Below, one piece after another: positions 52,350 through 53,491 of a stretch of DNA of 64,000 bases (position 1 is its first letter; each line of letters starts with the position of its first letter). Made by a program: the position numbers and the translations under genes. This DNA is from Deltaproteobacteria bacterium (lineage in GTDB: Bacteria; Bdellovibrionota; Bdellovibrionia; Bdellovibrionales; JAMPXM01): positions 62,001-126,000 of the forward strand of contig JAFLCB010000006.1 of NCBI GenBank assembly GCA_017302795.1, in the 5' to 3' direction. Below the pieces are notes generated by a model, which saw nothing but the letters and a program-made list of their open reading frames with translations, ran no database searches and had not been told where the DNA came from.

Positions 52350-52850
52350 TCAGTTTGACGCAACGATTGCTGCTCCGGTGACTGCTAGCAAGGTGCCAAT
52401 CAATTTCATGCTGTTGAAACCCGCGTCGAAGAACAGTCTTTCGGCTAGGAGGCTGAAGAAAACTTGGGCGACGATCAGAACAATGAAAGTTTTCGATGGC
52501 CCCAGCTGTTGAATTGAAAATGGAACTCCGAGAACTAGTAAGAAACCGAAAAAACCGGGTATCCAGTAAACCCAAAAAGAGGGGCCAGTTTGGGCAGCAT
52601 CACGAAAAGAAGTCGTCGGTGGTCTAAGCATTTCGGGAAATAGTTCGGGTTTTATATAGCTTGCGCCTATCACGGCTAAGCTTAAGACGAAAAAAACTAT
52701 CGCATTGATAAGCACGGCCGTCGTAAGTCCAATCGCCGCGCCAATTCGCCTATTCATAAGACCTTGTATGACGACGCCAAGTCCGAGCACTATCGGTATA
52801 GCAGTAATTGCGATTGTCGTTGCTACATTGGTGATCGTGGCAGCAGTCAT
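52350..52850 (-). CDS. DMT-family transporter (YdcZ/DUF606-like)
   Basis: The 166-residue protein has about five membrane spans in the EamA/DMT half-transporter arrangement and a RIGAAIGLTTAVLINAIVFF segment; the C-terminal span LIGTLLAVTGAAIVA is typical. It could work as a dimer for a metabolite or nucleobase. It overlaps the upstream Xdh-fusion gene by four bases (ATGA), so the two are translated together. The 200 bases downstream hold no feature. Confidence 0.75.
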   Translation of the reverse strand: MTAATITNVATTIAITAIPIVLGLGVVIQGLMNRRIGAAIGLTTAVLINAIVFFVLSLAVIGASYIKPELFPEMLRPPTTSFRDAAQTGPSFWVYWIPGFFGFLLVLGVPFSIQQLGPSKTFIVLIVAQVFFSLLAERLFFDAGFNSMKLIGTLLAVTGAAIVASN

Positions 52851-53491
52851 GTGTCGTCCTTTAAGTCACGGATTCGAAGAAGTTGGGCCGCAATACTGAG
52901 AGCAATTTCAGACGGTGTGTTGTTGCCGATTGGTTCGCCTACTGGGCAGTGGAGTTCTTTGAGGTCAGCCAGCGATACGCCTAAATCTAAAAGATTTTTT
53001 TTCAGTTTTTCTGCCTTCACGGTGCTGCCGATTGCACCGATAAAGGGAAAGTCGCACGGTAACGCTTTTTGCAGAATCGGTAGATCGGTCGCGTGGCCCA
53101 TTGTCGAAACAACAATGAATGTGCGATTTGAAAGTCGGGAAACATAGTCTTCCGGAGAGGTTTGCAGGACGGCTTGTAGGTTTCGAAACGCGGGAAGTTT
53201 TTCCAGCCATTCTTTTCTTGGGTCTATGAGGTGGCCGCCGTCGAGCCCAAGCATCGGAAATATGCAGGTATTGATGGCCTTGAACCGAGCAGTTTCGGAA
53301 AGGCCAGCTTCTTGAGAGGATGAAAGAAGAGCTGTACAGGCGCCGCAATCCCCTTCGGCGCACACCACTTTGGTGCCGGTCAAAGATTTCTCGTACCTTA
53401 AAAAATCTGAGACAGTCGAAAGTGTCTGTTCACCTTTCAGTGTCTGCTTGCGACCGTTGAGATAAAACGTAATTTCCGAGCGGGACTTCAT
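52847..53491 (-). CDS. XdhA-XdhC fusion: 2Fe-2S domain joined to XdhC C-terminal domain
   Basis: Residues 6-88 are the [2Fe-2S] domain of the xanthine dehydrogenase small subunit, with Cys44, Cys49, Cys52 and a fourth Cys at 76 (NTC), and DGGHLI that normally starts the linker to the second Fe-S cluster. From about 89 on (DPRKEW, then VVSTMGHATDLPIL, FIGAIGSTVKAEKL and CPVGEPIGNNTPSEIA) it is the C-terminal Rossmann domain of XdhC, the maturation factor. The molybdenum subunit, the second cluster and the FAD domain are absent. The frame is open throughout. It looks like an in-frame deletion scar that could still make protein. Confidence 0.8.
   Translation of the reverse strand: MKSRSEITFYLNGRKQTLKGEQTLSTVSDFLRYEKSLTGTKVVCAEGDCGACTALLSSSQEAGLSETARFKAINTCIFPMLGLDGGHLIDPRKEWLEKLPAFRNLQAVLQTSPEDYVSRLSNRTFIVVSTMGHATDLPILQKALPCDFPFIGAIGSTVKAEKLKKNLLDLGVSLADLKELHCPVGEPIGNNTPSEIALSIAAQLLRIRDLKDDT

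Follow-up and report, generated by a model that had tools for sequence, protein, structure and literature searches.

An in-frame xdhA-xdhC fusion, probably a recent deletion remnant of a xanthine dehydrogenase operon, in a genome of the Bdellovibrionales

The minus strand of the window, the 64,000-nucleotide stretch of DNA analyzed here, holds from 53491 to 52847 a single ATG-started frame of 214 residues, in which the N-terminus of the xanthine dehydrogenase (XDH) subunit XdhA is fused to the C-terminus of the maturation factor XdhC. The in-frame fusion had been recognized in the initial annotation, and is confirmed here by profile matches to Fer2 and XdhC_C. Aggregated, the data suggest that the fusion is probably a recent in-frame deletion remnant of an xdhABC operon rather than a new kind of protein. 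The features of the region, all on the minus strand, are as follows.

52350-52850, minus strand: ydcZ, a membrane protein of the DMT_YdcZ family; its start codon shares an ATGA with the stop codon of the fusion, as for xdhC-ydcZ in a genome of the same genus, G002
52847-53491, minus strand: the fused open reading frame (ORF), XdhA 1-89 plus the last approximately 124 residues of XdhC, as defined by profile matches and alignment
52850-53224, minus strand: the XdhC-derived part, the C-terminal portion of XdhC_C without the FGAGHV loop
53222-53230, minus strand: the deletion joint, CTC/ATA/GAC (HLI/DPR), where approximately 4035 bp are gone in comparison with G002
53225-53491, minus strand: the XdhA-derived part, a plant-type [2Fe-2S] domain with C44, C49, C52 and C76
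53472-53508, minus strand: a 37-nt block identical in G002, a hairpin whose loop contains the xdhA start codon
53506-53853, minus strand: a 115-residue protein, predicted to be exported and encoded immediately upstream of the fusion, in the same order in G002

Pfam assigns Fer2 to residues 10-77 of the fusion (27.5 bits, cut-off 21) and XdhC_C to residues 88-204 (85 bits, cut-off 29.7). The NCBIfam families are matched as well, XdhA (TIGR02963) over residues 7-89 with 72.7 bits and XdhC (TIGR02964) over residues 87-205 with 66.3 bits, scores well short of the whole-protein cut-offs of 467 and 161.6, respectively. The joint falls at residue 89/90 (HLI/DPRKEW; window approximately 53224-53227), in agreement with the earlier placement at about residue 88, near position 53227. 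Furthermore, the cluster ligands of the Fer2 domain, CxxxxCxxC...C, are all present, congruent with the earlier claim of intact cysteines. Compared with the XdhA small subunit (TIGR02963; Rhodobacter capsulatus 1JRO chain A), the fusion shares the first approximately 89 residues and the four cysteine ligands, but is devoid of the second [2Fe-2S] domain and the FAD domain. Relative to the Moco-binding maturation factor XdhC (TIGR02964; M. smegmatis 2WE8, B. halodurans 3ON5), it shares the last approximately 124 residues with all conserved columns, whereas it lacks the N-terminal domain (XdhC_CoxI) and, in the Rossmann domain, the FGAGHV loop. The initial annotation described the second half as the C-terminal Rossmann domain of XdhC, which overstates its extent: the match covers only profile positions 26-125 of 125 and, because beta1, the glycine-rich loop and alphaA are missing from the profile alignment, this part is not a whole Rossmann domain. 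In all relatives shown in the alignment, FGAGH or FGGGH is found approximately 20 residues ahead of the point where the XdhC part of the fusion starts. An AlphaFold2 model, generated from an alignment with rows for XdhC only and none for the [2Fe-2S] part, reaches a pLDDT of approximately 82-98 for residues 90-210, hinting that the XdhC piece may still be able to fold; the values of 33-70 for the [2Fe-2S] half, modelled without alignment rows, are hence left uninterpreted.

A relative that retains xdhA, xdhB and xdhC, the comparison proposed at the outset, was found within the same genus. G002 harbors an intact xdhA-xdhB-xdhC-ydcZ operon at the equivalent place (locus L111, 7997-12688), encoding XdhA of 518, XdhB of 787 and XdhC of 261 residues, and the gene order on both flanks is common to the window and G002. 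In the latter, the intact xdhABC genes sit between the gene of a 113/115-residue protein and ydcZ, exactly where the window has the fusion. The XdhA-derived part is 58-62% identical to the N-terminus of G002 XdhA, and the XdhC-derived part 56% identical to G002 XdhC; the strength of the profile matches, together with the matching operon, rules out chance. In G002 numbering, the window lacks XdhA codons 95-518, all of xdhB and XdhC codons 1-137, which bears out the earlier statement that the genes between the operon ends are missing. From the coordinates, the missing piece amounts to approximately 4035 bp (L111, 8372-12406) and is continuous in G002. An isoleucine codon is possibly common to ...HLI and ...(C)I-DPR at the joint, although G002 is too diverged for a call on microhomology. 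Another genome, G004, retains purT-DEAD with no adjoining xdh genes.

The genome that holds the window (4.23 Mb, 98.6% complete) contains no other match to either half of the fusion, thus no second XdhA or XdhC, and profile searches found neither XdhB (TIGR02965) nor the XDH-family Mo subunit with MoCoBD_2 (PF20256). Similarly, the MoaA C-domain (PF06463), MoaE (PF02391) and MoeA (PF03453) yielded zero matches, in searches whose controls were positive in 11 of 14 genomes. As any other XdhA, XdhB or XdhC, the Mo subunit, MoaA, MoaE and MoeA are all missing, no xanthine dehydrogenase can be made. XdhC holds Moco, permits its sulfuration and hands it to XdhB (PMC10609526); with these partners missing, the ancestral job is impossible for either half, and the fusion product cannot serve as xanthine dehydrogenase or as XdhC chaperone. 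Three further genomes of the genus are likewise without XDH and without the tested Moco genes. In G002, MoaA, MoaE and MoeA were not found in the 95% complete assembly despite the intact xdhABC; either an assembly gap hides the Moco cluster, or the operon has persisted beyond the loss of its cofactor.

The fusion is not a widespread protein family. Among 144 genomes of the class it occurs in no other, the halves matching separate full-length genes only, and in the fetched loci no ORF matches both halves (95 match the first and 87 the second); 65 loci are listed with both an xdhA and an xdhC gene. The closest-matching public loci are from Bacteriovoracaceae, Bdellovibrionales and similar metagenome-assembled genomes (MAGs), which places the source of the window probably within this broad group, and literature searches did not recover an XdhA-XdhC fusion. 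A single tblastn match over residues 9-208 suggested a second fusion in Lysobacterales (L056), which was rejected since the alignment ran past the homologous portion of an ordinary XdhC of 274 residues, and xdhA is a separate gene upstream of it. In the MAG concerned, D96SM.bin.4, separate contigs harbor two related xdh operons, both complete (L056 and L057).

We then turned to the age of the joint. The fusion retains all 45 columns that are conserved in at least 90% of the relatives, and shows no acceleration: its terminal branch in a FastTree phylogeny is 0.33, as compared to 0.58 for the intact G002 genes, and a relative-rate count assigns it 13.4 unique changes versus 17.2 for G002. Thus, the deletion is very young on this scale, unless constraint still acts on the frame. 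Neutral evolution was simulated with a simple substitution model without indels, scoring retention of all 45 columns with no stop, and the probability of this outcome is 0.10 at 0.02, 0.03 at 0.03 and 0.004 at 0.05 substitutions per site. If neutral, the deletion is consequently younger than approximately 0.03 substitutions per site, and a neutral remnant looks this fresh in a narrow time slot only. Synonymous sites between the window and G002 are saturated in every neighbouring gene (pS 0.74-0.87). An intact frame with every conserved residue is equally expected under selection for the chimera, and a single genome cannot separate the two. A very recent deletion is nevertheless favored, because the kept residues suited partners that have vanished and the fusion recurs in no relative.

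The neighbouring elements were also assessed. YdcZ-family (DMT) genes are located near or adjoining xdh genes in the window and in L042, L048, L036 and L112. Their side and strand vary, and the association hints at a transporter related to purines. The 37-nt block, present once each in the window's genome and in G002, is identical despite the saturated synonymous sites and represents the longest exact run between the two in the 17-kb syntenic block, the next one being 29 nt. It forms an 8-bp hairpin with the AUG inside an AUGAA loop, possibly preceded by a mini-ORF (G/ATG AAA TCG TAG). The block is found in none of the 11 other genomes of the family and has no match in Rfam; it is possibly a translational control element of xdhA.

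The initial annotation left two options, a recent deletion or a chimera in use for electron transfer or nucleotide binding. The former fits best, while the latter is not supported: with the glycine-rich loop gone, nucleotide binding is unlikely, and electron transfer has no visible partner, since the FAD and second [2Fe-2S] domains are absent, and so are the Mo subunit and the tested Moco genes. More broadly, the chimera may be retained as a working small [2Fe-2S] protein, with the cluster in the ferredoxin-like domain and the XdhC tail serving dimer or partner binding. The intact ligands and conserved columns, evolving without acceleration, and the possibly foldable XdhC part speak for such a protein, but with no counterpart in the other genomes examined, and with the loop, the FAD domain, the Mo subunit and the tested Moco genes lost, we consider it unlikely; the conserved XdhC residues served a partner and a cofactor that are no longer there, which makes youth a better explanation of their retention than a new role. 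It is improbable, too, that the protein is inert and the frame held open by delivery of ribosomes to ydcZ, frame-breaking changes then being polar on this gene. Congruent with such coupling, ydcZ is intact, the ATGA overlap exists also in the intact operon, YdcZ-family genes are also located close to xdh genes elsewhere (among others in L042, L048, L036 and G009), and no promoter-like site was found ahead of ydcZ. However, the start of ydcZ is preceded by its own AAAGGA motif, and while coupling would safeguard the frame, it would not do so for the 45 conserved residues, all of which are kept; it is moreover compatible with a deletion remnant rather than exclusive of it.

Finally, the assembler may have dropped 4 kb from a genome that still has xdhABC. 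This is very improbable: the joint contains no N and no collapsible repeat, it is exactly in frame with even composition across it, XdhB and the remaining parts of XdhA and XdhC are nowhere in a nearly complete assembly, and the three Moco genes are missing as well.

Hence we return to the deletion remnant. An ancestor would have carried an ordinary xdhABC-ydcZ operon, from which one internal deletion of approximately 4.0 kb would have joined xdhA codon ~89 to xdhC codon ~138 (G002 numbering). The joint would have landed in frame, a chance of one in three, and the resulting 214-codon frame would keep the start of xdhA and the stop of xdhC, as a young remnant without selected function in which decay has not yet begun for lack of time. 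In decaying bacterial operons, internal deletions leave gene remnants; the fusion is alike in its joined operon ends, lost middle and lost pathway partners, but differs in its in-frame joint and in a reading frame that is still intact. We infer that the fusion is most likely young and its product without function; a new function is conceivable, but lacks support.

Annotation pipelines may label the fused ORF as a xanthine dehydrogenase subunit or as XdhC, and caution is warranted. That a one-step deletion gave birth to a two-part protein, a ferredoxin-like [2Fe-2S] domain with an XdhC tail, which was kept and used after the loss of XDH, appears quite unlikely, yet if true the chimera would be a fused protein born in one step, at a time that can be dated. 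As a remnant, it would instead offer a clean snapshot of operon death through one deletion, in which the joint can be seen alongside an intact relative and the loss of the cofactor genes.
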